From NCBI RefSeq assembly GCF_032362555.1, contig NC_083526.1:7522001-7586000 (forward strand): a DNA stretch of 64,000 nt. The letters are read 5' to 3'. Origin of the DNA: Amyelois transitella (Eukaryota > Arthropoda > Insecta > Lepidoptera > Pyralidae). Positions 6,601 to 42,682 of this stretch are shown one piece after another (position 1 is the first letter of the stretch; the number at the start of each line of letters is the position of its first letter). Position numbers and translations under genes: made by a program. Below the pieces are notes generated by a model. It was not told the origin of the DNA and did not search any database. It saw only the letters and a list, made by a program, of their open reading frames with translations.

Positions 6601-9600
6601 AGGCCAGACAACTTTTAGACGAATAACGTTTCGTCTGTATAACAGTACCTTTTTCGTACATTTATGTTATGATATAAAATAAACTAATTTCGACATGCAA
6701 TTTTTATTAAAGAATTACAAAAAAAAAATTAACACTTTAAATTAGCAGCAATGCACATTAATAATTTTCATGTGAATATGAAGATTTGTGTTCAAGAATT
6801 CTGTTGATTCTTTCGTCTTTGTCTAAGTATTTTTTTTTTCTTAGGTTCTGGTGGGGCACCTGTTAATATATTTTCTATTTCCCCCTCGTTGGCAACGGTT
6901 TCCTTTATTAACGTAGTTGAGGTGAAATCGAAAGAAATCGGTTAGGTTAGGTTAGAACTGCGACCATCAACGCACGAGCCGAGCGAGCGAAGCGAGCGTG
7001 CCGCGGCAGCGGCCGGCGAAGTGCCAGAACCGAATCGCTTTTGTTTCACTACACAGGGCACTTGAATATTAGCTACAGTAGAAAAATAATTATGGAAAAA
7101 AAAAAACAATAATATATTATTTGGTAAACAATACATAAAATTAAATGAATATTACTCTAACTGAAACGTTTGCTACTTAAAAGTTTGCCTTGTGAAAAGT
7201 ATCATTATAAAAGCCAGACCAAACGTACAGTTGGCAATAGTTAAGTTGGGAAATGAAACAAAATTAAGTGATATAGTTGGCAAATGATTATTCCGCGAAA
7301 TAAAATTCTGCGAAACGTTGATTGGCAAGTGATGATCTGCCAAACGATTTTCGCCGAAAAGGCAGAGAACCGCCGAAAATAACTATTACACGCGGACGAA
7401 GTCGCGGGCACAAATAGTTTTAAATAAACAGCGAATAAATTCTCTGTCTAATTGTGATCGTTTTGTCTATTCTCGTGTGTTATCGTAAACATTATTATAG
7501 TTTACGATGTAGGAAAATTTTGCGGCGCTTACGCATGTTGTGCAAGGTGAACATTGGTATGCTAGTTTTGTCGGCAGGGAGATAAATCCAAGTATGGCAT
7601 TAGAGCAAGAAGTTCAGTTCTTTTTGATCGCATATAATTCGTCAGGAAGTATGCAGGGATCGTGGCAAGTGGAAAGAGGTAGTCTCTGCCTACCCCTCCG
7701 GGAAAGAGGCGTGAGTTTATGTATGTATGTATGTATGTATAATTCGTCATTACAGTTAGTGCTTAAAAACTAGGATAATAAACCGTCTTTTTGTCGTCAG
7801 CCTGATTATATATTATATTATACATATTTTTTATTATTATGAGCATCACTGCATAGTATCAAATCATATTATATAAATCATATCAAATCAAATTTATAAT
7901 TCTCTCAATGATTATTTTTACATTAAAATCATTATCATTCAGCTGAACGTGGCCTGTCAATCTTTTAAGACTGTTTGGCTCTGTTAACCCCACATCTGAT
8001 TAAATGAATGAATTTATTAACGAATTATGGATTTATAATTGGGATTCTTTTTTTTAGGCGATGGGCTAGCAACCTGTCACTATTTGAATCTCAATTCTAT
8101 CATTAAGCCAAATAGCTGAACGTGGCCATTCAGTCTTTTCAAGACTGTTGGCTCTGTCTACCCCGCAAGGGATGTAGACGTGACAATATGTATGTATGTA
8201 TTATGGATTTATAGATCTCACCTGGAGGCGGTACATTCTGCAGCTCAATCTTCGTGGGATTGTATAAATCCCCAGTCGTATTACAAATATTGTTAATCTG
8301 ACTGGCGTCCAGCAGCCTCGGAGGGAGTTCCCTGATGCTGTACTGCAGCATGGAGCTCACGAATCGAAGGTTGGACTCGTAGTCTTCGTCAGACGACCCA
8401 AGTTTGAAGGTCGCCCATGTTGGGTCGAAGGGAGAACGCTGAGAGAAGTCCACGGTTCCTTTGATGCCGTCCATGTTGATTATGGTCCTGTGGTGAAAAT
8501 AATTTTAGTGTGTGAAGGTAATCATCATTTAAACTGATTGCAAAAAAGGAGGAGGTTTCTTAATTTTAACAGTCATCAGTCATATGGTAGTCGGAAGAAT
8601 ATGCCTGATAAAAGTGAATGCGAGATAAGTTACCTCACAATGGAAATTGATCCATTAGTACAGTCGGAAAAGTTTAAGTCACGAGAAAATTATCAGAGGT
8701 CAAAACACTTGAAGACTGCTTAACGTTTTTTCTAATTAATTTTCATAGGTTTATGTACTTTAAAACGTTAATGAGTTATTTCCACACGCGTGTTTCATCT
8801 GGCCAGATTGGCATATTTACAAACAGAGTATCAAGAATGTGAAACTACAATGTGTGTAAAACAACACTTCTCCCTTAGAGGAAATAGGTTAAATTCCTTC
8901 AAATTAAGTTATAAGTCGATGTTAACTTGTAAATCAGGAAAAATTCAGTATTTTTTACCTTAGATTTAACAACATTTAATTCCCATTCAATGCAAATAAA
9001 GACTTTTTAAGCGTTAGACCACTGCTGGGCAAATGTTTCAGACATCCAGACATCATATCTATTGTCTTTTCAGTCCTCTTAAGAAGGTGTTCATTCTACA
9101 AATCCTATTAGTATCTCAAAAATATACTATACTATTCTACTCACTTTGTACTTTTTGGATCCATCGGCCTTAACTTCGCACACGCCAGAAAACTATCCGA
9201 ATGTCGATGATCATATATCACGACGTACAAACTGCGCTTCGTCACTTCCATGTCACTTCTCAACACGTTCAACACTTCATTCTTGTATAGAGTCTTCACT
9301 TTTCTAACACTACCATCTGTAGCTACTTTAACGAGGCCTAGACGAGCGTCCAGATCTCCTACACTCATACCATCGCCACTGTTATCAGGATCGAATACTA
9401 TCTGCAGGATATTACAATTATCTTCATTGTTACCTCTATCAGAATCAAATATATCTGTCACGAACAGTTTCCATTTATGTTCAGTGATCTCGACTTTATC
9501 AGGAATAGCTTTAATGTGATACAAATCTGATTGTACATAGGAATCAGCCTCATCAAATTCAGGGGCGGTCAACCATCTGAAATGCAAAGTGCCAGCTATG

Positions 9601-11006
9601 GGAGACGAGAATTTCGCCATAGCATGTTTCTCGTATTTTTCTTCAGTTGATAGAATAGAGGCACAAATTATTCTGTCTCTTTCTGCTGTTTCAAAAACAA
9701 TACTTTTCCCCCAAAGTCCATTTAACCCAGTTAAGCTATTCCTGCTTTCAAATTCCGCATGATCTTTCCCTGGAATAATAAGATACCCTAATTCTTCTGT
9801 CAAATCTATCAGCTCCCTGCCAAGATTGGCTTCAGAGCATCTAGTATCTGAGATGTCCCTGTAGTCGACTGGGAATTCGTGTATGGTCCATCTCCAGACC
9901 CCGTCAGGGTACTGGAGGGTTGGCTTCAGGTTTGTTCTGATGCTGATGAGCGTTTCATTCTTCTGGGAGAACTCGATCTCTCCGTGGAGGCCATGCTGTG
10001 ATATGTAGGCCCGTAGCACTAAGCTGCTGGCGATTTCTGTAAAGCAGAAGAAAAATAATAATTTTTTAAAGACCTTCACAACATGATGTCGTAAAAGCGA
10101 TTAAGGGATAGGCTTATGAACTTAGGATTCTTCTTGTAAGCGTTGGGCTAGCAACCTATCAGTATTTAAATGTCAATTTTATCATAAAGCCAAGCTGTTG
10201 AACGCGGGCTATCAGTCTTCACGACTGTTGGCTCTGTCTAACCCGCAAGGGATAAAGACATGATTATATGTATGTATGTATACCAATTAATTCATTTACG
10301 AAGTAAATTGTGAACAAAAAATCTTGCAATCTAACTTTGAAATTTTGAAATCATAACTCTTCTTTTTTAGATAGTTGTTTATATGTCTACTTTTCATCTC
10401 TGGAATATTGTTAAAATCTGACAAAGGACAAGGCAAAATTATTTAATAAAACCATTTGTATTTTTAATAATGAAGATAAATATTTTCTATTTTTATTTTC
10501 TGTTTGTTACAATAACACTAAGTACACTAAAAGACTTGTAAATGTTAAATAAAGGATATTTTTTTTTTGTAATTGTATGTATGTTTGTTAAATTAAACAT
10601 TAATTAACTTAAAAAACTGCGAAAGTTAATGAAACTAAACGGAAGTTCAAGACACGACCTTGAAATCAAGTTTCACTTCAACTTAACAATAACTTAACAT
10701 TGATCGTCCAATGACATTGCTTTCTCATAAGTCCTAAGTTACTTTGCAACTTACTTAGCACATTATTAAAATTACGACACTAAGCGAATAAACTTTACAT
10801 TGATCGTCCAATCGTCGCATTGCTTTCTCACAATTAATAAGTTACTTTGCAACTTACCTCACACGTTTCTAAAATTACGTCACAGAATCTAAGTGACACA
10901 TTTTTTCTATAATTATAACGTTGTAACTTAGCAGTAACTTACCAATAAAAAACAAAACAAACAAAACACTAAACTTTGGTATAACATGACTAATTTTGAT
11001 GTTCAT
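610..11006 (-). CDS. Rsod-like secreted protein with SOD-like domains (3' end outside window)
   Basis: Four coding exons are visible on the minus strand: 10943-11006, 9145-10036, 8222-8487 and 610-796. Phases agree at every junction, giving about 469 residues before the gene leaves the window at a GT donor beside 610. Exon 1 encodes a start methionine and a hydrophobic signal peptide (FVLFF core), so the product is probably secreted or membrane-bound. The rest looks like degenerate repeats of the Cu/Zn superoxide dismutase fold: HGEIEFSQ, IKGTVDFSQ, and late in the protein YPVGDLLGK followed by GVHSVVHRG. WTIHEFP resembles the SOD HVHEF motif, but the first histidine is replaced by threonine, so dismutase activity is doubtful. 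An N-glycosylation site (NET) is present. The nearest family I recall is insect Rsod (related to SOD); that name is inferred, the exon structure is seen. Intron 3 (797-8221) is 7.4 kb and stuffed with transposons. Confidence 0.75.
890..1135 (+). repeat. Dispersed repeat, second copy at 63160-63410
   Basis: About 240 bases matching 63160-63410 in the same orientation, with shared segments such as GTAGTATTGATCTTTAATA (one mismatch) and AAGCATGGGTAT, both ending in TGTCACCCTGTATA. The right-hand copy carries an extra AT-rich stretch. The terminal CACCCTGTATA suggests the end of a DNA transposon, but no inverted partner was found. Confidence 0.7.
1158..1342 (-). repeat. TATG-tailed SINE, 5'-truncated
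   Basis: Reverse-orientation copy beginning with the CATACATACATA tail and ending around the CCCAAGTTTGTAA segment. The 5' third of the SINE is missing. Confidence 0.7.
1850..1990 (+). repeat. Partial LTR of the TGTGGCGACA family
   Basis: Starts TGTGGCGACATG and is recognisably related to the 256-base LTRs at 2767-3022 and 3499-3754, but diverged and truncated near the ATTTCATGG segment. The sequence after it (about 2030-2160) resembles a LINE 3' end with GATAAGTCCGCCTTTG, also found near 52110. Confidence 0.7.
2767..3754 (+). mobile_element. Non-autonomous LTR retrotransposon (TRIM-like) with identical LTRs
   Basis: Two 256-base direct repeats, 2767-3022 and 3499-3754, appear identical by eye and begin TGTGGCGACA. 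They flank a 476-base interior. A primer-binding-site candidate (TGGTGACCCCGACGTGA) starts one base after the left LTR, and a G-rich polypurine tract (GGGGGGGAG) lies just before the right LTR. The 4-base repeat ATGT occurs at 2763-2766 and 3755-3758 as a target-site duplication. The interior holds no gag, protease or reverse-transcriptase motifs, so the element must rely on enzymes from elsewhere. Identical LTRs indicate recent insertion. The 4-base duplication fits Ty3/gypsy-type integration, which is inference. It sits in Rsod intron 3, apparently inside an older Helitron-like end (3756-3844). Confidence 0.88.
3023..3498 (+). other. Interior of the TRIM-like element
   Basis: 476 bases between the LTRs. 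It has the primer-binding-site candidate at the left, serine- and alanine-rich open frames with no recognisable domain, and the polypurine tract at the right. I see no protein-coding function. Confidence 0.7.
3756..3844 (+). mobile_element. Helitron-like 3' end
   Basis: Ends CGCGGACGGAGTCGCG then GGAAGCTAGT, the GC-rich hairpin plus CTAGT terminus seen in the other Helitron-like copies here. The TRIM-like element lies directly upstream, so only the 3' end is visible. Confidence 0.6.
3845..3990 (+). repeat. Dispersed repeat with AAGAAGCGG..GCACTGCAGC
   Basis: Matches, in reverse complement, the insertion at 20775-20930 (shared AATAATTGTCAAAACGTATG and ACGTCAA segments). The motifs GCTTCCAA..GAAGAAGCGG..CAAACTGCACTGCAGC also recur at 58200-58350 and 60285-60420. 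The identity of this family is unknown to me. Confidence 0.65.
4232..4690. repeat. Two TATG-tailed SINEs in inverted orientation
   Basis: A minus copy (about 4232-4475, starting with its ATACATACATGC tail) meets a plus copy (about 4478-4690) at their 5' ends. This makes a long imperfect palindrome centred near 4477 on the shared GAGATGGAGTGGTCCTAT segment. The plus copy lacks a clean TATG tail. Confidence 0.75.
4843..6171 (-). mobile_element. Mariner element with imperfect terminal inverted repeats
   Basis: The transposase remnant (4900-5973) is bracketed by imperfect inverted ends: TCAAGAAAGTAGCAGGAA on the left pairs with the reverse complement of the right end, TCAGAAAAGTATCGGGAA (about 14 of 18 positions). 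TA dinucleotides lie at both outer borders, as expected for TA-targeted mariners. Borders are approximate to a few bases. Confidence 0.75.
4900..5973 (-). pseudogene. Mariner transposase, interrupted by one in-frame stop
   Basis: From ATG at 5973 to the stop at 4900 there are 357 sense positions, of which codon 45 (5839-5841) is TAG. The flanking YE/YKAF context suggests that this was a tryptophan codon (TGG to TAG). Otherwise the frame is open. The N-terminal part holds helix-turn-helix DNA-binding segments. The catalytic triad is intact: GDETW gives the first Asp, HHDNAPSH the second, and PADFF the third, with 34 residues between the last two, the DD34D signature of mariner transposases. 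The downstream fragment alone (4900-5811) lacks the first helix-turn-helix, so the copy is probably dead. A copy this intact suggests fairly recent mobility. Confidence 0.93.
6176..7418 (+). mobile_element. Helitron-like element split by a later insertion
   Basis: The left part (6176-6403) begins CTATACTAATATTATTAAGC and closely matches the intact copy at 36721-36991; the right part (7372-7418) ends CGCGGACGAAGTCGCG followed by GGCACAAATAGT. The two halves join correctly if the 968-base element between them and one TSD copy are removed. The terminal ATAGT is a variant of the usual CTAGT. Confidence 0.75.
6404..7371. mobile_element. Inverted-repeat DNA transposon with 9-base target duplication (Mutator-like, non-autonomous)
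   Basis: Long imperfect terminal inverted repeats of roughly 65 bases: the left end reads GGTATCCTGCCTTCTCGCCG, and the right end in reverse complement reads GGTTCTCTGCCTTTTCGGCG. Both continue into a shared ATCACTTGCCAA segment. GCCGAAAAT flanks the element at 6395-6403 and 7372-7380. A 9-base duplication with long inverted repeats is typical of Mutator-like elements. The interior encodes no transposase. It includes GC-rich sequence (6955-7030) and three TTAGG units near 6945. Confidence 0.75.
7640..7745 (+). repeat. RTE-like LINE 3' tail
   Basis: Carries ATCGTGGCAAGTGGAAAGAGG, TACCCCTCCGGGAAAGAGGC and a TATG microsatellite, the terminal ~100 bases of the LINE seen at 22905-23098 and 57375-57690. 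Heavily 5'-truncated. Confidence 0.8.
7935..8200 (+). repeat. TATG-tailed SINE copies
   Basis: A short fragment (7938-8005) is followed by a fuller copy (about 8040-8200) with AGGCGATGGGCTAGCAACC, the CTGAACGTGGCC segment and a TATGTATGTA tail. It lies just 20 bases from the donor side of Rsod exon 3 (8222). Confidence 0.8.
10086..10280 (+). repeat. TATG-tailed SINE
   Basis: Begins at GATGTCGTAAAAGCG and ends GATTATATGTATGTATGTA. It lies about 50 bases upstream (in gene direction) of the splice acceptor of Rsod exon 2 at 10037. Confidence 0.8.
10693..10886 (+). repeat. Tandem duplication of about 100 bases in Rsod intron 1
   Basis: Two diverged direct copies (about 10693-10783 and 10794-10886) share ACATTGATCGTCCAAT, CATTGCTTTCTCA, AAGTTACTTTGCAACTTAC and AAAATTACG. 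The copies sit within 60-250 bases of the first exon (10943-11006). No open frame is present. Confidence 0.7.
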
Positions 11007-13627: not shown

Positions 13628-16052
13628 ATGGTAAGTTAAGTGACAGTGATGTGAAGTGATGATGGTTTTGATGAAGAACAACGAGACAGTTCCGATCGAA
13701 ACGCGTCAGTTTTAAACGGTGATGATGAAGTTAGTGATGTTAATGAGTGTTATCGCGAAGATAATGTAAATGCATTTGAAATTGTTGTTGGTGGTCCTAT
13801 TGATCGTGATGTCCAATAGAAAAGCAATGATTTTGTTATGAATGAAATTTTGAATTGCTACGCGAAGATCGTAAACACTTTTGCGTTTTTAAAGTAATTA
13901 CATTTAAATCAAATTACCAATTTCAATAGAAAGTAACTTCAAATAAAACTAAAATAAACGTATAATTTATATCTGAAAATCTTAATCCTGAAGATCTGAA
14001 AGAAACAAATAAAGAAACATATTAAATTTAAAGTTGCCAGTAGCAAAGTAAAAGAACGTATCTCAACTGTAAAATAAAGTTTAAGTAGCGAAATTTACAT
14101 AATCCGAACAATTTGAAACAATACAGTCAGTAAATGAAGATGCACTTCCAACCCTTAATATAGATCATAAAAGTTAACATACCGGTAATGTAACCATTCC
14201 ACGAACAGAAACTAGTAAATCAATTACATCAACTAATGAATCGAAATGTTCGCTCGGTGAAATGGGAGCAGTTACCAAATGGAGATCTATAAATAATTAA
14301 TTCACGTAACATTTGGCGCGATGTAAACGGACGCCGAATTGTGCACTAAAAATAGCGGCGCCTGCGCCACGCCTTAGCTGGAAGCAAGTGCTGAAATGTT
14401 CCCAAATTGGAGACAGAAATAGAATCAGCGTTCGATAATGACGATCAAAGCGTGGTAGCCTTCAATATCTTTAATTATAATAATTTAACTTTTTTTTTTC
14501 AAACATAATGAATGAACCTGTTTGCAATTTTAAAAAATAAATTGGAATAGTTACCTACAATCTTACATAATTTAATAAATGATACAAATATCATAATTGA
14601 TGAAACAGAAAATATGTGAAAATCTAGAAAAAAATAATCTCAAGAAGTTTTGAACATTCCTATGTAATTCGAACTCTAAGCTTTGTTGACCAATAAATAA
14701 AATACTTCAATAGTAACTAGGATCTGCATCATTATAATAAATCACTGAACTTCTAAATTGGAGAAGTAATTTAATACTTTGCATTTTATCGCCGTACGTG
14801 AACCTTGATATCTCTTAGAATTAATACAACTACTAGTTTACTAAACTAATAAAAATTCAGTGGCGCTAACAAGTGATAACTTTCAGGCGGATAAGGACAA
14901 GAAAGTAAAGAAGAAGAAGGCGAAGGAAGATGCGCCCGCAGAAGAGGCTCCAGCTGCGGCGCCCGCTGCGCCCGCGTCGGGTGGCGGAAGCGATAGGCAA
15001 TCCTCTCGCGGAAGCCGCAAGGCCAAGCGCACAGGCTCCAATGTCTTCTCCATGTTCACACAGAAGCAGGTCGCCGAATTCAAGGAGGTTGGTATAGAAA
15101 TTTTCATCTTCAACAACTAAGACTTCTTATCAAAGAATGAGTTTCAAGTCTATTTTGATGTGTAAAAGGATGAAGGATATTTTTTCAATTCATCAGAATA
15201 AACTTGTAAATCTGACCCTAAAGTTCATACAGATATGAACTTTTGTACCACTCAAGTAATGAAGTCAAGTAATGAATCATAAATACCCATCTATTACAAC
15301 CATCTTTTTCTCTTTTTTTTTTGTTCACGTTGTCACAACTACAACCGAAATCTTTCAGTATTTTCTGCTCGTCTAGCCGAAAATCTTGATGGATGTGTCA
15401 GTCCATCTATTTTATAATCATTGGTATTAAAAGCCAGTACGAGTACACACATTTTATAGTTTGGCTCAAATCTATAATTTGATCACAAAACTAGGTCAAC
15501 AATTCCCCCATTGTCCACGTTTCGCCGGAATCGTGTCATTGTGTCATCTGTTTAGCTCGTGCCCGACCGATGTTTAGTAAACTGGCCGTGTTGTGATTAC
15601 AGCAATGTCTGACTTGTGACTATTGTTTCCAGGCCTTCCAGCTAATGGACCACGACAAGGACGGCATCATCGGCAAGAACGACCTCCGCGCCACCTTCGA
15701 CTCGCTCGGCAGGCTCGCCTCCGAGAAGGAGCTGGACGAGATGGTGAACGAGGCCCCCGGCCCGATCAACTTCACCCAGCTCCTCACCCTCTTCGCGAGC
15801 CGCATGTCCGGCGGTTCCGATGAGGATGATGTCGTCATCAACGCTTTCAAGACCTTCGACGAGGAAGGCAAGATCGACTCCGAGAGATTGAGGCACGCGC
15901 TCATGACCTGGGGCGACAAGTTCTCCGCCGAGGAGGTCGACGAGGCGTACGACCAGATGGACATCGACGACAAGGGCTTCATTGACACCACCAAGCTCAT
16001 CAGCATGCTCACCGCCAGCGCTGAGGAAGAGGAAGGCGGTGAAGCCGCGTAA
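13628..16052 (+). CDS. Mlc2: Myosin regulatory light chain 2 (muscle)
   Basis: Three coding exons: 13628-13630 (the ATG alone, followed by GTAAGT), 14887-15087 and 15633-16052, total 207 residues. The product binds the neck of myosin II heavy chain and tunes contraction in muscle. The N-terminal extension is Lys/Ala/Pro-rich (KKKKAKED, then APAAAP), as in insect flight-muscle forms. The kinase-target region reads KRTGSNVF, placing Ser52 where the conserved RLC phosphoserine lies, while the adjacent threonine-equivalent position is glycine. The first EF-hand loop (residues 74-85, DHDKDGIIGKND) keeps acidic residues at the coordinating positions and so should bind Ca/Mg. Later EF-hands (around DEEGKIDSE and DIDDKGFID) are degenerate. 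Exon 3 is strikingly GC-rich at third positions compared with its AT-rich introns. A polyadenylation signal AATAAA lies at 16288-16293. Confidence 0.96.
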
Positions 16053-28578: not shown

Positions 28579-31500
28579 TTATCTCTTGCCGCGAGTACTC
28601 TTCTTTGTTTCTGAAACAATTATCAGTCAATCAATATTTGAAACACTTGCATTACTGACTAACCGACCTACGATTTTGGAAAAGAATCTATCTCTTTCTC
28701 TCATGGATGCTGTAAAGGTGAACAGACAAATTCATCTAGTGCAGCTTTTACATACATATAGTCACGTCTGTATCCCTTGCGGTGTAGACAAAGACAACAG
28801 TTTTGAAAAGACTGAAGGGTCACATTCAGCTGTATGGCTAAATGATGAAATTGAGATTCAAATAGTGACAGGTTGCTAGCCTATCGTCTTCAAGAAGAAG
28901 GTACGGAGTTCTTAGGAAAAAGAGGATACAAGAAATCGAGCCAAACACCAGGACGATAATGAAAGAATTGAATTTATAAGTAAAAATAATAATTACCCGT
29001 AATAGCCTTACTCCTGGCGCTGCGCTTCACCGGCGACGCCGGCTTGGCCACTACGCGTTTCGCTCGCTTGCCTGATTCTGTTAAATTATATGATAATAAA
29101 ATATTATTGAATTATTGACAGACATATCATTGTATTCATACATATGAGCTTAAATTAATAGAATTACAATTGTGGATAAAGTAAACTACGTATGTAGGAA
29201 TCGTGGTAAGGAAATATATAGTTAGATTCAAATAGTGAAAGGTTACTAGCCCATCGCCTATATGAAAAATCCCAAGATTATAACCTATTCCTTAGCCACC
29301 TTTAACAACATCCATGGGAAAGAGATGGAGTGTTCCTGTTATTTTTCATATTGGTGCCGGGAACCACACTTCAGATATTATTCACAGTTAGACAGTTTAT
29401 TCGATACAAACAAAAATACACAAATCTATTCCCTGTCGCACCCTCCACTGCTTTAGTCAGGTACTTTCCCCATCCATCCATCACGGGACACGTATATATT
29501 TTCTTACCTTTAGCAGGTTTGGCGGGGGTGTCAGCGGTCTTCCTCTTTCGCGTAGCTGGCGCCGTTTCGGCCACAGACTGGAACAAAGCATATTATGTTA
29601 ACAACTGTCCATCGTATAATACAATCAATGCATTTGATTTTATGTATATTTATTTATTTCTTTAAAGGTTGTTCTATCATTACAGATGTAGGTCCAAGAG
29701 AATAGAATTACACAATTTCAACGAATTTTTAATTATATTTTACGCAATAAAGATGTACAACACAATAGGCGGCCTTAAAACATTATCTGCCAATCAACCA
29801 GTGGGTCTAATCTAAAACCCGCATGTTCAGTCAATTAGATGTGTAAACCCTGTTCCAATATAAGTTAAGTTTATCTAGTAATTACAGTAAAAGCTGAAAT
29901 ATGCATGGAGAGTTGGTGTAAAAAGAAAAATAGAGTGACGTAACTACTCTTACACCCCACCACTAATTAAGTCCGTAATGGAAATTAATAATTTTGGCAA
30001 AAATTATCGATTTCCATTACAGACTCTACCATGGAAAACTTTTGTCAAGAGAACTGCCTCCAATAAATTCCCTGAAAACTGCATCAAAATTAATATACAA
30101 ACATACAGGTCAAACTGAGAACACCCTTTTTTCTTTTGAAGGCGGTAAAAACTAGAAGTGGTGGTATGTAAAAGTATATTAAATGCACTAAGATATTATG
30201 TGTGTGTAGTAAGTGAACCTGTTTCCCGCGGGCGGCCCCGCTGCCCGCCTGCGCCTTGGCGTCGGCCACGCCGCCGGCCCTCGTCTTCCGCACCTTGCTG
30301 GGAACCTCTACTTCGGCCGTAGACTTCCGTTTCCTGTTGGCTTCCGCTTTGCTCGCCCGATTTGGTTTTACCTAAAGAAATATATTTATTTAGACTAAAA
30401 ACTCTTGTGGGAATTTCCAGAAATTATTTTAGCTATGTTCCTTCTAAACAACATCTAAAGAATGATAGTAGCATCAATAATAAAAATAAAACCGTTTAAA
30501 AAAAAATTAGGACCAATGTCCTAATTTTCTCAAAGATTGTTCAACAAAAATTTTGTTGAACAATCTTTGAGATTGAAAGTAAGGAGTAATTTTGCTTTGA
30601 TAATATTACTATGGAATCACAATAACATTTTGAACTGTTATTGTCTTACCAACATCAAATACAGATTAACCTACCTCTGTTTCTGCATCTGCTTTCTTCC
30701 CCCGAGTCTTCTTTTCTTGCGCCTCACTCACTTTACCTCTCCTTCTTACAGGAGATGCACTAATATTGCTTTGTTCACTTTTATCAGCCTTTTTGCCTCT
30801 TTTTTGTGCTACTTTTACATCTTTTTGTGCGACTTTGACCTCTTTTTGTGCAACTTTTACCTCTTGTGCATCTGTTTTCCGTCCTCTAGTTAACGTTTTT
30901 TCTTCTTTCGTGTCAATTTTCCGCCCCCTTTTCGATGATACAGATTTATTCGCCTCTACTTTTGCACCCCTTCCTTTCTTTGCTTCAACATCTTGAGTTT
31001 TTCTGCCTCGTTTTGGCGATTCAACCTTTCCTACAGTATTTCGACCCCTCCTCGTTGCTACAGGTTTTTGCTCTTCGCTATCTTTAGCCTTTTTCGGCGC
31101 TGGTGTTTCAACTGTTTCCGTTTTGCGTCCCCGCTTTGCCGGTACAGTTTTTTCAACCGCATCGCTCTTCTTACCACTGCCTTTATTGGTTTCAATGACT
31201 GCCTTTTTACCCCTAGTTTTTGTCGGCTTCTCTTCAACGCTTTCTGTTTTGTTTGTTTTCGGTGATTTAGACTTAGTTGCAGGTTTAGTTACTTCTACGT
31301 CAGTGTTCTTACGGTGTCTAGTCGTGCGGCCTTTAGGAGATTCAGTCTTCTTGTCCACAACCTCAGTGGGAGCTGTAGTTTTTCTTGTGCGTCGTTGTTT
31401 ATTGGGCACTTCGCTTTGACCTGCAGAAGTTTCCTTCTGACTTAAAGCAGCTTGAGCCTTCGTCACTCGTGGCTTCATTTTTGGCGACGGTTTGGAAACA

Positions 31501-34500
31501 ACTAAACTGACTCGCTTTCCTCTCGTCCTTTTCGGCGATTTTGGTTTCTGAATATCTACTGATTCCGTTTCAGTGTTCTTCTGTCTCCGAGTAGTTCTTT
31601 TCTTGGGGCTCGGTGATTTTTCTTGCACATTTGCGGCGGGTTTTGGACTCATGACTGGCGCTTTTTTCGCAACAACCAAAGTCGCGCGTTTTTTCACACC
31701 AGAATCGTTTTTCGCGCTCATTCTTGTTACTTTCGGTGAAAGAACTATTGTTTTCTTCGGTGACACGACAACTGGTGCAGTTTTAGGTGAAACGACGACT
31801 GAGGCCTTGCCACGGACTTTGCCTCGTGTCCTTTTGGGTGAAACTACTATTTTGGTTACCGAAGTGACACCCTTCACTTTTGTATCGCATTCCGAAGTCT
31901 GTAAAACTGGCACTTCGACCACAGTTGTTGTGAAACTGCAATAAAAAGAATTAATATAGAGTACGGAAAAGTTGTATGTATTTCATGACATTTCATTTCT
32001 GAATCGTGGTCATACGCCAAGAGGATGTCGAAAAAGAACAAGTATACCAACCTGGCAGAGTGGTCGGCGCGCGCGATGGGCGACACGCGGCCCAGCGCGG
32101 CCGGCGCGCGCGCGCGCCCCTTCAGCGGCGTGGAGTGCACCAGCGCGCGCTTCTTCAGCGGCAGCACGCGCCCCATAGCGTCTATGCCACTAGCACTCGA
32201 GCCGCGGGAAACTCTAGAGCTGTCCCTCGACGCTAACGACCTCTTCTTAATGGGCAACGTGTGTGAGCTGTAATTCTCAGCGGTGGATCTCTTTCTTGAC
32301 ACGTTTTCCTCGCTTTGAGTTAAAGTACTATTGCGCGCGCGCGACGTACACAGCGGAGCGTTCCCTTCGACTGTACTCGTCGCTAGTTTCTGCAATTCCC
32401 GGGCACGTTTTTTTTCCAAACACTTTTGTAACTCCTTTTGAAGCCATTCTTCAGGCTTTTCGATTATTTCGTCGATAGACACGTGCAAAGAACGACGCCT
32501 CTTACGCGGCTTCTCATTCTTCTTGATGAAAGTTCGAGAGTAAACCGCTTTGATCGGCGGCCTGCCGATCAATCTATCAAATAGCAACTCGCTATCTCTA
32601 TACGAATGAGTTGATTCGTTGAACAGCTCCTCAACTCCACTGACGTTAATGTCATTCTGTTCCTTCTCCTGACGGAACATCGCCTTGACGCCACGGACGT
32701 CGCTCAAGTCATTGCGAGGCGAATTCTTTCGCAAAACCTTCTTAACGCCAGATACATTACGCAAATCGTTTGCTGGACTGCTAGCTCCAAAGAGTTTTTT
32801 GACTCCTCTTACATCTCTCAAATCGTTTTTAGGAGATTTCGCCTTCTTCTGCGTCTGAAACAGTGACTTAACACCGGTCACACGTCTCAAATCATTCTTA
32901 GGAGACGCCGCGAATACTTCTTTGACTCTGACATCGCTTAATCTGTTCTTTGGAGACCTCGCGAATACGTTTTTGACTCCTGAAACGCGAGTCAGATCAT
33001 TTTTAATCGATCTTCGCGTACGAGGCGTTCGTAAGAGACCCTTTACGCCTTTGACATTGCGCAAATCATTATCAGGCGTCTGTTTCTTGAACAATCTCTT
33101 GATTCCTGTCAAATTGGGGCTGTTATTTGGAGTTCCCAGGGGACTGACGAATACTTCTGGAGTATATGATCCAGTTTCGTTCAAAATTGAGTTATCTGGC
33201 GTTTGTCCCAACGCCACAGTATGCCTTGTCGGTCTCTTTGGTACATCATCGTCATCAAATAATTGTTTACGAGAGAATTCCGTCATGCTCTGAGATAGTT
33301 TCCGTTTCACTGGACTATTGAACAACTGTTTCACGAAATCAGACTCGTTCAAATCGTCGATTATGGATCGTTTCGACAGCGGTTTCTTAGCGGTCGAATG
33401 CTTATTTTTGACCGCTTCTTGCACCAACTTCACCGCACTCTTTGGCGTCACTACATCTTCCACAATCATCGAGTTACTTCCCTCGTTCCTGTCAGAATTT
33501 GACTCCTTGCTTAATCTGGACGCGGTGTTTCTCGCGCCAAAGTTGAACGATTTAGATTTCAACGATTTGCGATCTTTCTTTGGCTTCGGAGGTTTCAACG
33601 AGCCTCTCCCCTGTTTTGATGACCTTAGAGAGGTCAATGAACTCTGAGTCGAGTCCAATAGATTTTGGATGCTCAGAACTGGCGTACAGACTTCTTCCAC
33701 AGGGCTTTGCCTGTTTTCGGGAGTACATATGCCCTCGTTTGTTACATTTGAGATACTAAGAGATAAGTTACTACGGGTTTTACGTTGATTTCCTGTATTA
33801 TCCTTAGGGCTATTTATAGGAGACTTAGGGCTCAATGTAGTTCTAGATTTTCGAGTTGTAGAAACATTAGTCTTAGGACTTGACTGAAGCGATTTGGGTC
33901 TTGATAAAGATTTAGTTTTGCGAGTCACAGCGCTTATATTAATCACAGGACTGGATAGGGATCTAGGGCTCGACAAAGACTTTGTTTTGCGTGTTGCTGG
34001 ACTTATTTTAGAATTCGGACTTACATTCAACGATTTAGAACTCGATAGCGATTTAGATTTGCGAGTTCCAGTTATGATAGTCTTTGGACTTATTACAGAT
34101 GATTTTTCAAGCGAAACGGAATTAGTGGCTCTGCTTGCTCGTTTGGAAGATTTAGGGGAGGATTCATCATCAGAGACTGTTGAAATGAGCAGCAAATCAC
34201 TGTCATTTAGCCTTGAGCGACTGCGCGAAGCGCGGGACACTCTCGTACTGTTAACTGATATGTGTTTTTGTGTATTTTCTGGGGTCGACCAAGATTTGGA
34301 TCTACGTGAAGACCCACGCGAAATTTGAGAAGTTTTAGAATTTTGCGATATATTAGCACTGGATAAAGACCTTTTGGAACCTCTAGTAGTTTTAGCAACA
34401 TATGGTGTACTTGAAGTCAATAATGATGGGTCTATGGTAGATCTAGTTTTCCTACCGATGCTGTTTTGAGGCGTACCGAAACTGTCGCTGCTCTTAGTCG

Positions 34501-37500
34501 TTCTCATCGAGTTGTAAATCGACGAATTTTCCGATCGATTCGAGTCGACTGACACTAAATCGACGATCGAATATGATTCTAGATTTTGACTCGGAGAGCG
34601 AGGACTTAGCGTGCGAGTTTGGAAGGCAGACGCTACAGTTGTATCATAACTCTCATCGGATAAAGATTTCGTAGTCCTTTGAGAGTATCGTGAATTTCCA
34701 GGCGTTTCTAGAGCTTTCTGTACAATGACGCTCACTCTAGAGGACTTCCTCGGTCTCGGGGACTCGGCCGTCAGTGTACTGCAAATCGCTCTCGGCTCCG
34801 ATAGAGTCGTTCCCAAGGTGCGTTCCAGGATTCTACTGCTGCGAGAGTGTATGGACTTCCTCGGCGACGGCGATTTGACGCTCGACTCGTAATGCAAAGT
34901 CATGTCGCCCTCCGATTGGCTGTCGTCCGCGTCCTTCGTGACGTCACTGACGAAGAACACGTCCCCCGATTGGTCGTCGAGATTCTCGAGGTTGCTGAGG
35001 TCGAACTTGATGGATTCGGTTTTCCTGGTAGACTTTTTGGCGGCCGGGTCCTTGAGGGCCGACTTCTTGGGGGAGGGCAGCGGCGGCGAGCAAGCGGGGT
35101 TGGAGTCACTCACATCTACTAATGTTGCCTGCAATAATTAATGAAAACAATGGTTAATTTTTCATGCTATAACAAAATGACTGACATAACTGTTAACATA
35201 ATGAATATCTTTAAAACTTGGCACACCTACTTTCAAATGTCGCCTCTGTAAAGCTTTTGCTTCCAAGCGTAAGACTGAATCCATACATATAATAAAACTG
35301 TAACTGAACTTTGTCTGTACATTGAAGATATTTAAGAAAAAAAATTATAAGGGGTCTTTTTATCTGGGGTATAATTATAAGGGGTCTGTCTGTCTGTCTG
35401 TCCGTCTGTCTGTCTGTATGTTTGTACGCGCATCACGCAAAATCTACCGAACGGATTTGAACGAAATTCGGCACAGATATAGCTATTAACCTGGATTAGA
35501 ATATAGGCTACTTTTTATCCTGAAATTCTATCCCAAGGGGATGAAATAGGGGGTGCAAGTTTGTATGGAACTTCGTCATTTTTGAATCGATATAAAAAGC
35601 TATAAATAATTAATTATCATATTTATAATGATGATTAAAAAAATAGCATTTTATTGATTTAATTCATTATGCTTTGTTTTTTGATGAAGTTCCCGTGGTT
35701 TAGATATTTATTTTTTCCCCCACCCGATACGAGATGGCGCCTCAAGAGAATTTAAGAAATAACACGATTGTAGCCGCTGGCAAAATTTTCAATTTATTAG
35801 AAATTCTTTTTTTCATTGATTTAGTTTCGCCAGTACTTACCGTTTCACCACATCTTTGAGAAGTTTTTTTTTTATGTAGGTAGTTTGACGCGCCCCGCAT
35901 CGGCGACAATGCATCGCTCAAGATTAGCAGGAATAACACACAATGTAGTAACGCCAGTACTTACCGTTTCACCATTGATTTAGTTCCCGTGGTTTAGATA
36001 TTTATTTTTTGACTACCCGATATGAGATGGCGCCACATGAGAATTAAAAGTATTATTATAGTTTACAAAAAAAAGGCCAATTCGAGCTATCTACGGCTTA
36101 AAACAAATAGATTCACTTAGAGATTTTTTCAAAACCCTTAATATTTTAACATTGCCCTCACAATACATTTTCGCTTCATAACAATATTATAGAAGCTAAA
36201 ATTCTTACTGGTTGTGCAGCTGGTGAAATTGTTTTTATACCACGCATTCCCCTCATTCCCAAAAACTTTCCATTTCAATTTAAGCGTGTTCAGCTTCCAG
36301 TGGCTATATGTTTCGCGATGACGATTAACAAATTGCAAGGTCAAACGCTTGGAGCAGCCGGAGTCGACCTCAGAACGAATTGCTTCTGACACGGACAGCT
36401 CTACGTCGCTTTCCGCGGGTCACCAGCTGTGACAGTTTTTTTGTGATGTCTCCAATGGGCAAGACAGCTAATGTTGTATACAAAGAGATACTTTAACTTT
36501 CCATTATTATAATTTCCTTTTTTTGTCTTTAGAATTTATTTGTTTTTTAACAGCTGCGCCCCCGGGACTTTGCTTTTGTAAGAAAAATAAACTATGTTCT
36601 ATTCCAGGCATTATTCTTCCCGTGTACGTAAGTTTCATCAAAATCCATCCAGTAGAATTTTCGTGATTGAATAGCATCCTCAAACACGCACTCACGTAGG
36701 TACATCAATTTTTTTGCATAATCTATACTAATGTTATAAAGCTGAAGAATTTGTTTGTTTGTTTGAACGCGCTAATCTCAGGAATTACTGGTTCGAATTT
36801 AAAAATTCTTTTTGTGTCTAATAAACCATTTATCGAGGAAGGCTTTAGGCTATTTATTATCACGCTGCAACTATTAGGAGCGAAGAAATAATGAAAAATG
36901 TGAAAAAAACGGGGAAAATTATTCTCTTTGAGGGCTTCAATGATGCACAAAATAACTATTCCACGCGGACGAAGTCGCGGGCACAGCTAGTTTCATTATA
37001 TGTGTAAACAAGAAATTCCGAGTTAAACCAAAAATTATGTTAAGCCATTACACTATGAAAATAGATCTCAAAAAAGCAAACCCTAACTCCAAAAGCACAA
37101 TTCAAACAAGTAATACTCACATCAGTCGTCACACTCTGCGCCTTCGACTTCCTCCCCCGGGACGTCCTGCCGGGGGTCGCCGATGACGTCACAGCAGACG
37201 TTCTTGCTACACTCCCGGGTTGCCTCCCCGAGGTCTGTGCAGGAGCCGCGCTCACGTTCCCTGGCGACGACGTCATGGCTGAGGATTCCCTCTGCTGAGG
37301 CGTGTGTGAGGCCGTGCCGGCGCGCGGGGCGCAGCGCGGGGAGCGCTTCCTGACGACGTGCGAGGGCTGGGGGCTGCCAGGCTTCTTGGGGGTGTGCCGA
37401 GTCATCAGCAGAATGGCCGCTTGTTTTGTGTGATCTGAAATGGAATGGTGGGTTATTGACATGTATTGTGACATTTCTATACAAAGTAAAACGCGAAAAA

Positions 37501-39748
37501 TTTAATTTTGAAACTAAAAATGGAAGTTTAACAACTATCCTCGATTCAGAAGTAAATCAATTACGCTTAAGACTTTTTTGGGGACTAATAGTTGATCAAG
37601 CCAACAACAACAATAAAACAGTACCTTGTGGTTACCATCCCTTTGATATAGAACCACTCCATATCTTTCCCACGGATGTCGTAAAAGGCGACTTAGAGAT
37701 AGGCTTATAAATTTAGGACTCCTCTTGTAAGCGTAGTTGTAGCCCATGTTAGCAACCTGTCACTATTTCAATGTTATTGAAACAAGTATACATACCTATT
37801 ATTATTTTTTGGAAGTGGGAAGATGGTCTCTAGATCCGGGAAGAGATGTGATTATGAGATAAAGATATGTATCTTATTTATAAGATATGTATGTATGTAT
37901 TGTACATATCAACTCACCTATAGTAAGCGGCGCTTCAATCTTTGTAACTCTCTTGCTGGCACTCTGGGCTCTTCTTAGAACTGTAGTCCGCAGCGGAGTG
38001 ACCTTCCTAGCGGACTGTGCTCGGGGGGAGCTGGTGAATAGCAGCGGGGCGTGGGGACGGGAACTCTTGCGGGGGACGCTCTTCCGGGATTCTATCCATT
38101 GGCTCGCTTTGGTGGTGCCCTAGGAAATGATAAAATTTATTTTTATTTATTTATTTATAAATACACTTTATTCATATTCAATTTCGAATTGAAGCAATTG
38201 ACTTTCAAGATTTTGCGATCTTATCTTTCAGCCTGCGACAGCTCTGCAACCTTTATGACCTGTTGGATAACATAATTTTTCAAAAGATATTTGGTCAGCA
38301 GGGTCTTTCATCTTTGAAATTTATGTTGATAATTCATTTCAAGATATAAACTTCTATGACTCCGCTGATCAAAAAACTGAGAGATGACTTAGAAGATAAT
38401 TTCAAACTGACCTGCAAGCTAGTGTTCTTAGGGCTGGGCCGGGCTATGGACTTGCGTTTGGAAGTCTCCCCTTCCACCACAGATGAGTCCAGTTCAGTCC
38501 CGTTCTTGCTCGCTCTGGATCGCTTCGTGGATGAAGTCTGTCTGGCCGGGGTTACTTGACCTGGAAAACAAGCAAAATAGTAATGATGTTGAATAACAAA
38601 TGTTTGATTTCTCACTGATGTTTGATCTAAAAACCCTGTACATGCTGCATGTTTAACCATAATCCAATATGTATGTTATGTTATAGTTATGTTATTTGGC
38701 CATCTGTTCAGGGAGCTGTGGCTGGGCATGAAGGCTCGGTGAGAGGTTTAGTTATCATGTGTAGCACTCACTCTGTGTGTCCCGACGCTGGGGCTGCACG
38801 ATGGCCACCTGTCTGGCGAGCTGGCCGGGCATGGAGGCACGGTGAGACATCTCTATGGCGAGGCGGAGTGTTGGAGAACGGGCAGTGGCGGGGGCGGAGG
38901 CACTGCCTCGACGATTCCTTTTAGGGCTTCCGCTGCGGCTTGTGCGAGTGCGGGAATATAATGCTGAAAGGATTTTAATGAATTAGGAAAAAAAATATTT
39001 TAGAGTAGATTTCTAGAAGAATATTCTATTCATTTGAAAGCATTACAATATATGTATATATAGCATTATAATACAAAAAAATATAACATCCGAAATAATG
39101 ATAATTTGTGAGCTAATATAACTTGGATGTGGTATGTGTCAAGAAACAAAGTGCAAAATGGTACCAGGCTGCGGCGCCAGAGGCCTGTCGGCAGTAGGGT
39201 CGCTGTAGTCCCAGCGTAGCGCCCGGCCTCCAATCTCGATGGTGTCTCGGTGTCGCAATGCCGCCACGCTCACTGGGCGCCCATTCACCAGTGTGGAGCC
39301 TGTGCTCACGTTGCGAACCACTGTCTGAAATTATAGCTGGTTCAAAAAATTGCTCGCAGTTTTTTCTAACTTACAAACGGAGTGTCACAGGTTTCTCTGT
39401 ATTTGATTGCACCAGGAGGAAGGCGGAAAAAGTTGACTCTTTATTATACAGGATGGTAGACAATGATAATGTTGTCTATTCAGAAGTGCAGCACCCAACA
39501 CATAGTTGAACCAAGAATTTTTTACTTCAGGGATGCAAATATGTATTGTGCACTGCACAAGTAATTATTACTGTAGTCACCTGGTTAGCATGTACCACAA
39601 CAGTGGCATGATGAGCACTGACACTCGGCAACATTATCCGGATGTCACAAGCTGGGTCGCTGCCCAGGGTAGCGAGTCCCTCTGGCAGCTGATAGCGCTT
39701 CACGTCGCGCCCCAAACGGTCCAGAACTACAAGCTGACCACCTGACAT
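28579..39748 (-). CDS. FHA-domain, Ki-67-like chromosomal protein
   Basis: Twelve coding exons, all phases consistent: 39581-39748, 39165-39324, 38772-38963, 38412-38560, 37918-38119, 37121-37434, 32052-35128, 30675-31935, 30219-30371, 29508-29577, 28997-29077, 28579-28610, total 1952 residues. Residues 1-100 form an FHA domain (DIRIMLPSVSAHH, then VSTGSTLVNGRP), closest to that of Ki-67; but the usual GR is GS at residues 29-30. Residues about 1066-1235 hold nine repeats of roughly 20 residues, consensus NDLRxVxGVKxLF, joined by SPK. The vertebrate Ki-67 repeat contains a similar DLxGxKELFxTP core. The tail is very basic: SPK/SPKK motifs, seven or more RGRK/RGKK AT-hook-like motifs, and a C-terminal KKSTRGKR. 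Many SP/TP sites suggest mitotic CDK control. Expected role: perichromosomal coat of mitotic chromosomes. No RVxF-type PP1 motif was found by eye. An alternative is an unrelated FHA protein of basic composition. Confidence 0.8.
28750..28890 (-). repeat. TATG-tailed SINE fragment
   Basis: Minus copy from the tail (ACATACATATAGTCACGTC) to GACAGGTTGCTAGCC, in the last coding intron of the Ki-67-like gene. Confidence 0.75.
29225..29370 (-). repeat. TATG-tailed SINE, 5' part
   Basis: Carries AACATCCATGGGAAAGAGATG and GGTGCCGGGAACCACAC, the 5' end of the family in reverse; its 3' tail is lost. Confidence 0.7.
30502..30571. repeat. Two adjacent perfect hairpins
   Basis: AAAATTAGGAC and its complement flank CAAT near 30505-30530; next to it, CTCAAAGATTGTTCAACAAA (from 30529) pairs exactly with the sequence ending at 30571, with almost no loop. 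It lies in an intron of the Ki-67-like gene, 100 bases from the exon 30675-31935 donor. Confidence 0.8.
30800..30865 (-). repeat. Short in-frame tandem repeat in the Ki-67-like gene
   Basis: Three 21-base units encode (E/D)VKVAQK-type heptads in tandem inside the exon at 30675-31935. The frame is preserved, so copy number can change without frameshift. Confidence 0.8.
32606..33115 (-). repeat. Nine Ki-67-like peptide repeats
   Basis: Units begin LTGIKRLF, NDLRNVKGVKGLL, NDLTRVSGVKNVF, NRLSDVRVKEVF, NDLRRVTGVKSLF, NDLRDVRGVKKLF, NDLRNVSGVKKVL, NDLSDVRGVKAMF and NDINVSGVEELF. Most are followed by TP or SP and basic residues. Unit 4 has lost one glycine. The DNA copies are diverged, so the array is old rather than a recent slippage product. 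Confidence 0.9.
35370..35600 (+). mobile_element. Helitron-like 5' part with (GTCT)n microsatellite
   Basis: A CTGT/GTCT microsatellite (35384-35415) leads into a Helitron-like body (CGAACGGATTTGAACGAAAT, GGCTACTTTTTATCCTG). No CTAGT end follows directly. It lies in the 2 kb intron of the Ki-67-like gene between 35128 and 37121. Confidence 0.6.
35690..36046 (+). repeat. Direct repeats about 295 bases apart
   Basis: GTTCCCGTGGTTTAGATATT plus the following CCCGATA.GAGATGGCGCC segment occurs at 35690-35745 and 35985-36046; GCCAGTACTTACCGTTTCAC occurs near 35830 and 35952. These may be remnants of a larger duplicated Helitron segment. Confidence 0.65.
36150..36496 (+). pseudogene. Helitron helicase C-terminal remnant
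   Basis: The plus-strand translation reads AKILTGCAAGEIVFIPRIPL, then FAMTINKLQGQTL, then GQLYVAF and MSPMGKTANVVY. These match the C-terminal motifs of the PIF1-type helicase of autonomous Helitrons (LIPRIPLIP, FAMTINKSQGQ, GQLYVA.SR, NVVY). It contains an in-frame TGA (in the CF-HGQ region) and a frameshift before MSPMGK, so it is dead. An intact non-autonomous Helitron-like copy follows 220 bases downstream, suggesting that both derive from the same lineage. Confidence 0.85.
36719..36991 (+). mobile_element. Intact Helitron-like element
   Basis: About 270 bases from TCTATACTAATGTTATAAAG to CGCGGACGAAGTCGCG, GGCACAGCTAGT. No terminal inverted repeats; it has the subterminal GC hairpin and CTAGT end of Helitrons. 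It is the reference for the disrupted copy at 6176-7418. Confidence 0.75.
37640..37770 (+). repeat. TATG-SINE 5' fragment
   Basis: ACCACTCCATATCTTTCCCA and CGTAAAAGGCGACT segments; the 3' half is missing. Confidence 0.65.
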
Positions 39749-40772: not shown

Positions 40773-42682
40773 ATGGACTTGAATTCGCAGAATTCTAGTT
40801 ACTGGTTCGTGGTTCGCGAAGACCAGAGCAATGTTATATTTAGTACCAACAACGTAATACAGAATCCTCAGAGTAAGTAGTTATGACAACCATGATCTAA
40901 TTATTGGGTTAGGTTTCCATGCAAAAAAGGCGAACGGGAGTTGCTTCATCAAAAACTTGACATAGGTGCACACTTAACTCCCCGGTAGGAAAATTATGAC
41001 TGCAATGCTCAACCTCATCATACACATGCATATGCTGAGTGGAAACCCTTTTGGTCGCATCATGTATTTTTTTTATTTTTTATTTCTATGTTTATGAATG
41101 AAAATGTAATCATTGAAAGAAAGAAAGATTTTTCTTTCTTTCTTTCAATGATACTATTACTTGTAGAATAAAAAATTATCTTTAGGTTAAAATTTAATTA
41201 TCATATTTATATAATGCAGTTGCAGGGCATGAACCAAGGTTTATAGTGGATGCTGGTCTCCAACCGCAGTATATACAAGAACAAAAAGATGAAGTAGCAA
41301 TTGATAATACCTGTGCAGTCGATGTTGACAATTTCTGGGATAGAAATAAAGTCCAATTACTCCTTTCACTGTGGAGGGATGATCGCTTCAAAGATGCCAA
41401 CAACAAGGATAGAACTATGTGGGAACAGATTGCTGCTATAGTTGGTATTAGCGAAACTGAATGTATAAAAAAGTACAAAAGCCTTAGACGTACCTATGTA
41501 AGATTGTCAAATAAAAGAAGATTGGGTAAAAATATAAAATGGATTCACTACAATGTCTGTGATGATGTGTTCAAAGATTGTAAGACATTGTCCTCTGCGG
41601 CCCTGGTGCCCTGGGAGGATAAGATGGTTCGGCAGCTACTCACACTCTACATTGAGAATCTTGACCGATTTCAAGACCGAAATTGTGTACAAAGAGACCT
41701 TTGGAAAGATATAGCGGGAGCAATGAACACAACTGAATATAATTGTTACCAAAAATTCAGGTATCTGAAGAGAAGGTATTTCACTTTGCTGGAGAAGAAA
41801 AGTAGCACTGGGAGACAAATCAAGTGGCCCTACAGTCAATACTTTGAGAGAATATTTTATGATTATGACCCTTATATATGTTCTTGGGACAGCAGCAAGA
41901 TAAAACAGCTAATCGATGCATACTCCCAGATTGCTTACAAGTTTAGAAGCCCTAGTTTCCAAAAAAAGGAATTATGGAAAGAAATAGGAGAAATTGTAGG
42001 AAAGAATGCCAGTGATTGTGATAGAAAGTTCCGGAATTTAAAGCAGACATATATTCGACTGAAAATGAGGGCTGATACAGGGAGAGCAGTTACAAAATGG
42101 AAGTATTATGAAGATTTTGAAACAATATTTAGCAATACCAAGGTACATAGAAATGGGATCCCACTTAACTGTAGAAATCAAACTGATAATTACATAATAA
42201 AGCTTCTAAAATTTGTAATAGACAATTTGGAAAAGTTTAAACATCCACTAAGGAAAAGGAAACAATTTTGGAGACTGGTTGGCCCTAAACTGGGATTGAC
42301 GGCGGAGGAGTGTGACCGTAAGTTTAGGAATCTGAAGCAAACTTACATGAGACTGCGAGAACAGAAAGCTGTGACTGGGAAGTGCAATAAGTGGCCATAC
42401 TATTCTTACTATGAGAAAATTTTTGAGGGGTCCTGTGCGATGTGCAATAAAGTGGAGAACAATGGATCAGAAGGAGTCTGTCAGCTGTGTTCTAAAGGAA
42501 AGAACAGCGTTGGTGAAGATATAGATAGCCAGACAATATCCGATATCAGGAAGGTGATGCGGGATATGCAGGACCGGCACAGTGCAGACAAGTTTGACAA
42601 GCTGATACAGGCCGTGCAGGACTCCAATGACATACAACGCGAGAGGAATATGATCCTCAAAGCATTGTTGGATAAGAGATAA
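40773..42682 (+). CDS. Protein with four tandem Myb/SANT-like domains
   Basis: Two exons, 40773-40872 and 41220-42682, give 520 residues. Four domains of about 85 residues (roughly 70-152, 163-250, 254-340, 354-440) share a pattern of a helix with (L/I)L..(L/Y), then LW..I, then C..KFR.LK..Y.RL and a closing K W.YY..FE.IF. This is the trihelix-type Myb/SANT-like fold, also close to MADF; it usually binds DNA. Domains 3 and 4 share DRKFRNLKQTY, the sign of a later duplication. After domain 4 come two CxxC pairs (CAMC and CQLC, 13 residues between them), a possible small zinc knuckle, then a probable helical C-terminal tail (RKVMRDMQDRHSAD). I do not recognise a named orthologue. The second exon has two usable acceptors six bases apart (41219 and 41225), both in frame, which would add or drop two residues. 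Confidence 0.88.
40905..40990 (+). repeat. tRNA-SINE fragment
   Basis: GGGTTAGGTTTCCATGCAAA and GGGAGTTGCTTCAT segments of the family body, in the single intron of the Myb/SANT-like gene. Confidence 0.5.
41111..41150. repeat. Perfect hairpin with GAAA repeats
   Basis: CATTGAAAGAAAGAAAGA (41111-41128) and its exact complement (41133-41150) enclose a TTTT loop. It lies 70 bases before the acceptor of the Myb/SANT-like gene. Confidence 0.9.

Follow-up and report, generated by a model that had tools for sequence, protein, structure and literature searches.

A probable divergent Ki-67/bridgin-type protein with an array of short repeats, predicted from a gene of the lepidopteran Amyelois transitella

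Does a lepidopteran genome encode a chromosome-surface protein of the Ki-67 type? The question is raised by a predicted minus-strand gene in a 64,000-nucleotide stretch of Amyelois transitella contig NC_083526.1 (the window, to which all coordinates below refer), in which a first-pass annotation had inferred a Ki-67-type protein, ancestral or reduced in form, whose functional unit would be the short core of its repeats rather than a long spacer. An obvious Ki-67 orthologue is not detectable in Drosophila (PMC9359577). The authors of a 2025 study of annelid Ki-67 knew of no phylogenetically validated orthologues reported in other invertebrates (PMC12669781), and Ki-67 sequences from Hydra, Trichoplax, Ciona and Saccoglossus were already present in PMC4032110. 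The excerpts of PMC8406421 add nothing on insects, and PMC8914287, on Bombyx haemocytes, does not mention Ki-67. No paper on an insect Ki-67 stood among the best-ranked titles, which lay mostly outside subscription journals. We presume that Ki-67-like automatic names may well exist in databases for such insect proteins. The analysis presented here makes it probable that the predicted gene product is a divergent Ki-67/bridgin-type chromosome-surface protein working in the manner proposed below. The features on which this reading is built are as follows.

28579..39748, minus strand: whole gene, 12 predicted exons, 1952 residues (GT-AG borders, consistent phases, single frame to the stop)
39581..39748, minus strand: predicted exon 1, start codon and first half of the FHA domain (residues 1-56; Pfam FHA E 7e-13 over residues 27-88; best PDB match the human Ki-67 FHA domain, 3e-10)
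39165..39324, minus strand: predicted exon 2, second half of the FHA domain (exon join, Pfam, PDB search)
37121..38963, minus strand: predicted exons 3-6, S/P/R/K-rich linker (residues 110-395; exon join)
32052..35128, minus strand: predicted exon 7 (3077 nucleotides), SP/TP-rich region, repeats and charged segment (residues 396-1420; exon join, composition)
32606..33127, minus strand: nine short Ki-67-type repeats with core [ND]VxGVKxLF (residues 1063-1236; repeat profile, shuffles)
28579..31935, minus strand: predicted exons 8-12, lysine-rich basic tail with recurrent (K)RG(R/K)(K/N) words (residues 1421-1952, net charge +98; exon join, composition)

Exon borders were picked by eye and the join was rebuilt by script; the splice joins are predictions. 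On the minus strand, predicted exons 1-6 lie at 39748-39581, 39324-39165, 38963-38772, 38560-38412, 38119-37918 and 37434-37121, and exons 7-12 at 35128-32052, 31935-30675, 30371-30219, 29577-29508, 29077-28997 and 28610-28579. All 11 introns have GT-AG borders, and the joined exons form one open frame of 1952 codons plus a stop, which bears out the coordinates, the 12 phase-consistent exons and the FHA and repeat positions given in the first-pass annotation. By eye, the donors after exon 2 (gtacca) and after exon 9 (gttcac) are weak. The predicted protein, in which Ser and Thr make up 23% of residues, has the order FHA domain, body, repeats and basic tail; residues 101-395, in the linker region, gave no Pfam match at E values up to 1.

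Intron 6 (37120-35129), at 1992 nucleotides the longest of the 11 and containing repeat-like DNA, would lend itself to the reading that the model fuses two genes, one for an FHA protein (exons 1-6) and one for a repeat-bearing, basic protein (exons 7-12). We regard such a fusion as highly improbable: exon 7 starts at an in-phase acceptor and contains no ATG in frame before codon 76 (hand count), a high Lys plus Arg content and recurring SP/TP sites are found on either side of the exon 6/7 junction, and the domain order of the joined product equals that of Ki-67. Inspection of intron 6 (35129..37120, minus strand) also revealed a GTCT microsatellite and a twice-repeated 'gtgaaacggtaagtactggcg' word. 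The 'gcccgcgacttcgtccgcgtgg' word in the same intron is one that we take to be a common lepidopteran repeat.

The N-terminal FHA domain claimed at first pass was recovered by Pfam with the coordinates and E value listed above. Yop-YscD_cpl also exceeded its Pfam cut-off (5e-9), MU2_FHA fell below its own (E 0.055), and nothing among the prokaryotic families of NCBIfam came near a cut-off (best 7.6e-6, 26 bits vs 120). When the domain was searched against 177635 distinct PDB sequences, 30 matches were returned, the two top ones being both human Ki-67 (3e-10 and 3.6e-10; residues 5-96). These lead the runner-up protein, a mycobacterial ABC-transporter FHA domain (3.3e-5, followed by GarA-type proteins), by five orders of magnitude. 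A "Forkhead-associated 1" entry followed at 0.065, entries named Rad53 at 0.23 or worse and MDC1 at 0.33 or worse. A hand count on the printed alignment gave 32 of 92 residues identical to the human Ki-67 domain; the two proteins start there no more than about one residue apart, and the words CDIRIxLPxVSxxH and VNG are common to both. The assignment of the predicted domain as Ki-67-type is thereby supported, and the profile searches did not place it with a different family.

An N-terminal FHA domain and a long body between the ends also characterize insect MU2 and vertebrate MDC1, which carry C-terminal BRCT domains. The predicted protein might accordingly be a different FHA protein, either an MDC1/MU2-type DNA-damage mediator of insects or another FHA scaffold, in which a basic, SP/TP-rich body and short repeats evolved independently and resemble Ki-67 by convergence. 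An FHA domain followed by a long disordered body does describe proteins of this type, and the repeats fall below the Pfam KI67R cut-off, as detailed below. Convergence is nevertheless unlikely. MU2_FHA in Pfam (0.055) and, in the PDB, which does not hold every FHA family, MDC1 (0.33 or worse) and Rad53 (0.23 or worse) scored poorly against the 3e-10 of Ki-67. The tail (residues 1421-1952) gave no Pfam match at E values up to 1 and thus contains no BRCT domain, and the repeats separately match the core of the Ki-67 motif. Identity with MDC1 or MU2 was set aside on the weak FHA scores and the lack of BRCT.

The second line of evidence for a Ki-67/bridgin-type protein is the repeat array. The annotation had described nine repeats of about 20 residues with the core NDLRxVxGVKxLF; nine were confirmed, with 18-20 residues matched in each, a start-to-start spacing of 17-23 residues and the consensus PxNDLxxVxGVKxLF, but the Gly is absent from repeat 4 (RLSDVRVKEVF), and repeat 1 (NSPNLTGIKRLF) has diverged. 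Exon 7 holds all nine. When each repeat was scored with a profile of the other eight, repeats 2-8 were found at an independent E value of 8.4e-4 or better, whereas repeats 9 (0.019) and 1 (0.15) were weak. A nine-residue pattern, written after the repeats had been seen, fits eight of the nine and was present in none of 2000 protein shuffles. A candidate extra degenerate copy at residues 989-1001 (NESDFVKQLFNSP) was not significant (0.52). Tandem Repeats Finder listed no DNA array between 32606 and 33127; the repeats are therefore visible in the protein only, and a DNA-level tandem-repeat artefact was set aside.

Two further segments near the array were noted. Residues 1279-1310 (SIDEIIEKPEEWLQKELQKCLEKKRARELQKL; 32384..32479, minus strand), directly after the repeats, form a charged stretch that looks helical by eye (best Pfam E 0.21). 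In exon 8, at 30791..30865 (minus strand), a 21-base tandem repeat of 3.5 copies with 85% matches codes for (EVKVAQK) units; unlike the Ki-67-type array, it is recent-looking and visible in the DNA.

To judge the age of the array, 28 pairs among eight cores were compared, repeat 4 being excluded. Across these pairs, codon positions 1-2 were 62% identical and third positions 31%, and in the eight best core columns the values were 74 and 30%; the excess at positions 1-2 is partly due to the choice of aligned cores, but the third-position divergence is not. Synonymous divergence (dS) was saturated or undefined in 17 of the 28 pairs and exceeded nonsynonymous divergence (dN) in the remaining 11. 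The combination of near-random third positions with a kept core indicates that the array was not recently homogenised and that the core was kept by selection on the protein. As judged from these substitutions, the array is old and constrained, and the within-array pattern favours the short core as the functional unit. Over 12 columns of the eight insect cores, nucleotide identity was 52% vs an amino-acid identity of 43%. Human Ki-67 repeats also have a higher DNA (73%) than protein (57%) identity, with a median ratio of nonsynonymous to synonymous rates (Ka/Ks) of 0.675 (PMC8354752), so this comparison alone does not separate the two arrays; the insect array differs from the human one in its near-random third positions.

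The human Ki-67 motif, TPKEKAQALEDLAGFKELFQTP (PMC8354752), contains a part, EDLAGFKELFQT, with which the insect cores can be aligned gap-free, RDVRGVKKLFGA being one example. Repeat 4 was left out of this gapless set because its Gly is missing. None of 20000 shuffles of the motif scored as well against the eight gapless cores, and the summed eight best matches of the 13-residue human core in the predicted protein exceeded those of 5000 of 5000 shuffles. What the insect repeats and the human unit have in common is, by these comparisons, the core and not the remainder of the human unit.

Several results weigh against a Ki-67 assignment, and the first of them concern the repeats. On the repeat-bearing piece Pfam KI67R reached 12.1 bits against a cut-off of 32.4 (E 0.29), behind the unrelated families BRISC_FAM175B (0.02), RelA_SpoT (0.04) and ATP_synth_reg (0.12), all four being below their cut-offs. 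Nine insect pieces, of which eight cover the repeats and one residues 979-1033, gave no KI67R match, and the human motif itself gave one at 1.1e-10. Although a hidden Markov model of all nine repeats ranked the human motif 1 of 5001 sequences (4091 reported), the margin was a narrow 0.6 bits (9.4 vs the 8.8 of the top shuffle). Taken singly, the 13-residue core had its best match in repeat 5, a score that 25 of 5000 shuffles reached, and the 22-residue human motif found its best match at residue 412, outside the repeats, with 85 of 2000 shuffles as good. A PDB search with the repeat profile at E values up to 10 gave one chance-level match (an epimerase, 0.91), and the search with the region around the repeats likewise gave one (E 1.4). 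The Ki-67 likeness of the repeats claimed at first pass thus has the support of the gapless core match but not of KI67R.

The remaining contrary results lie elsewhere in the protein. In the FHA pocket, the PDB alignment places Ser30 where human Ki-67 has Arg31 and Ala45 where it has Lys46; human Ser45 is kept as Ser44, as are His48 and the NG pair. Binding of ribosomal RNA (rRNA) by human Ki-67 is abolished by mutating R31 and 'K45' (PMC9151767), and in the numbering of the PDB alignment residue 45 is Ser and residue 46 Lys. The phosphate pocket is altered under either numbering, so reading of phosphothreonine or rRNA by the predicted domain should not be assumed. The PP1-binding motif RVxF, in its strict form, has no match in the predicted protein; it is conserved in all Ki-67 orthologues (PMC8354752), and the published alignment of the PP1 segment includes Ciona, Saccoglossus, Hydra and Trichoplax (PMC4032110). 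The tail, with 18.8% Lys, 9.4% Arg and 1.1% Leu, is basic but Leu-poor and so is not a leucine/arginine-rich (LR) domain. Two segments of exon 7 bear on the PP1 motif.

33536..33559, minus strand: sole loose RVxF-like word, KSKSFNFG (residues 919-926), with V replaced by F (motif scan)
33215..33304, minus strand: possible remnant of the Ki-67/Repo-Man PP1-binding segment (residues 1004-1033, QLFDDDDVPKRP), without RVSF and short of significance (gapless alignment with the 5j28 peptide)

The second, which lies just before the repeats, is the best gapless match to the 5j28 PP1 peptide and was equalled by 156 of 2000 shuffles; Pfam PP1_bind had no match in exon 7 at E values up to 10 with the HMMER filters on. 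A PP1-segment remnant in the right place, with its motif gone, is possible.

The charge pattern of the body and tail is consistent with the proposed role. The density of SP/TP sites noted at first pass held up in shuffles: 68 lie outside the FHA domain vs 29.9 expected (standard deviation 4.7, largest 43; 1000 shuffles). With every SP/TP site counted as phosphorylated, the computed net charge of residues 396-1060 drops from +48 to -10, that of the repeats drops from +24 to +6, and the tail is left at +66. In comparison with the phosphorylation-driven charge blocks described in PMC9106583, such a shift would fit a polymer that, on a switch at mitosis, comes to have a basic anchor and a brush of neutral or acidic charge. 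The very basic tail was likewise reproduced. It contains eight RG(R/K)(K/N) words and no GRP, and an AT-hook tail was rejected on these counts. In bridgin, the basic end can be exchanged for that of human Ki-67, with which it shows no evident sequence conservation (PMC7794384); this suggests that charge alone may suffice for anchoring, and chromatin binding by the predicted tail is plausible.

The same charges bear on a further alternative, in which the protein would be a bridgin-like linker between kinetochore and chromatin, with the FHA domain and body binding the outer kinetochore, the tail binding chromatin and the repeats serving as docking motifs. The absence of a standard RVxF is bridgin-like. 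Ki-67 itself, however, is not reported at kinetochores in the excerpts of PMC7794384, and the body of bridgin is acidic (isoelectric point 4.65) vs basic here (residues 396-1060, net +48 unphosphorylated); we hold this linker role to be distinctly unlikely.

Taken together, the kinship of the FHA domain, the core match and the single-exon repeats support the proposal of a Ki-67-type chromosome-surface protein, whereas KI67R, strict RVxF and an L/R-rich tail do not. The product is classed as divergent Ki-67/bridgin-type, and not as a full Ki-67, because RVxF, the LR-type tail and the FHA pocket fail and the repeats match only at the core. That the protein works like a Ki-67 is, on this evidence, most likely. 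In the proposed mechanism, the lysine-rich tail would anchor the protein non-specifically to chromatin, and the long, SP/TP-rich and probably disordered body would form an outward-facing coat together with the short-repeat array. Phosphorylation at mitotic entry would lower the positive charge of the body, so that electrostatic forces might part the body from an anchor that remains strongly basic. A coat partner could dock at the nine short cores, which would offer it multivalent binding points, with the FHA domain capping the outer end. A more far-reaching version is a long shot: the insect protein would need neither PP1 nor a standard phosphate-reading FHA pocket and would function through the short-core array, and, if its source is a holocentric lepidopteran, it could hold complexes of the outer kinetochore to the chromosome over its entire surface, in a bridgin-type role alongside CENP-T.

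Comparison with known systems places the predicted protein nearest to vertebrate Ki-67 (MKI67), with which it shares an FHA domain at the extreme N terminus, a large Ser/Thr-rich body, tandem repeats with a [DN][LV]xG[FV]KxLF core and a basic end, as well as the confinement of the repeats to one exon (nine of nine here) and the domain order (PMC8354752). It differs in the length of the repeat unit, 18-20 residues vs about 120 in human and 60 in chicken (PMC8354752), in its total of 1952 residues vs 3256 in human Ki-67 (PMC9151767), and in the missing strict RVxF, the K-rich, Leu-poor tail in place of LR and the Arg31-to-Ser change. All Ki-67 homologues are described as retaining a conserved domain of 31 residues that includes a 22-residue motif (PMC4841783). 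Judged by published description, bridgin (Bgi1, Cryptococcus) and proteins like it would resemble the insect product in their FHA domain, non-standard or absent PP1 site, repeats of a consensus motif and basic C-terminal domain (PMC7794384), with FHA domain, repeats and basic domain in the same order; bridgin differs in its acidic body and kinetochore location. With Repo-Man (CDCA2) there is the weak, non-significant resemblance of residues 1004-1033 to the PP1 segment common to Repo-Man and Ki-67, but RVTF is absent here and exon 7 has no PP1_bind match. The annelid (Platynereis) Ki-67 is likewise an invertebrate FHA protein, with about 20% Ser/Thr vs 23% here, and differs in having a PP1-binding domain (PMC12669781). 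MU2 and MDC1 are set apart by the FHA scores given above and by their BRCT domains. Three pattern scans of viral contigs gave 3, 35 and 14 matches, none of which was confirmed as a relative.

The Ki-67 motif is without known function (PMC4841783). In mammals it sits in long, variable repeats. A natural unit that is little more than the core and under purifying selection tells which residues matter, and the short-core array offers a compact object for binding studies. If the assignment is correct, a Ki-67-type coat would exist in insects, where Drosophila shows no obvious orthologue (PMC9359577), and the PP1-binding arm could be lost while the FHA domain, the core and the basic anchor stay.

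The Ki-67-like gene has a head-to-head neighbour at a distance of about 1.5 kb, an open frame of 494 codons stop to stop (41198..42682, plus strand) in which four Myb/SANT (MADF-like) stretches were seen. Between these divergent genes, at 41109..41152, lies a perfect inverted repeat of 20 bp around a loop of 4 bases. Scans of the window with Rfam at the gathering threshold and for tRNA genes found nothing. A mariner-type transposase frame of 312 residues stop to stop lies at 4900..5838 on the minus strand (Transposase_1, 1.1e-17). Other matches in the window are one to FERRY Fy-3 and a weak one, short of the cut-off, to OTU; like the transposase, they are in keeping with an insect source. A long open frame at 9141..10100 (minus strand) appears by eye to be superoxide-dismutase-related, with no Pfam match at E values up to 0.01, and another at 15597..16052 (plus strand) resembles by eye a myosin regulatory light chain with EF hands.
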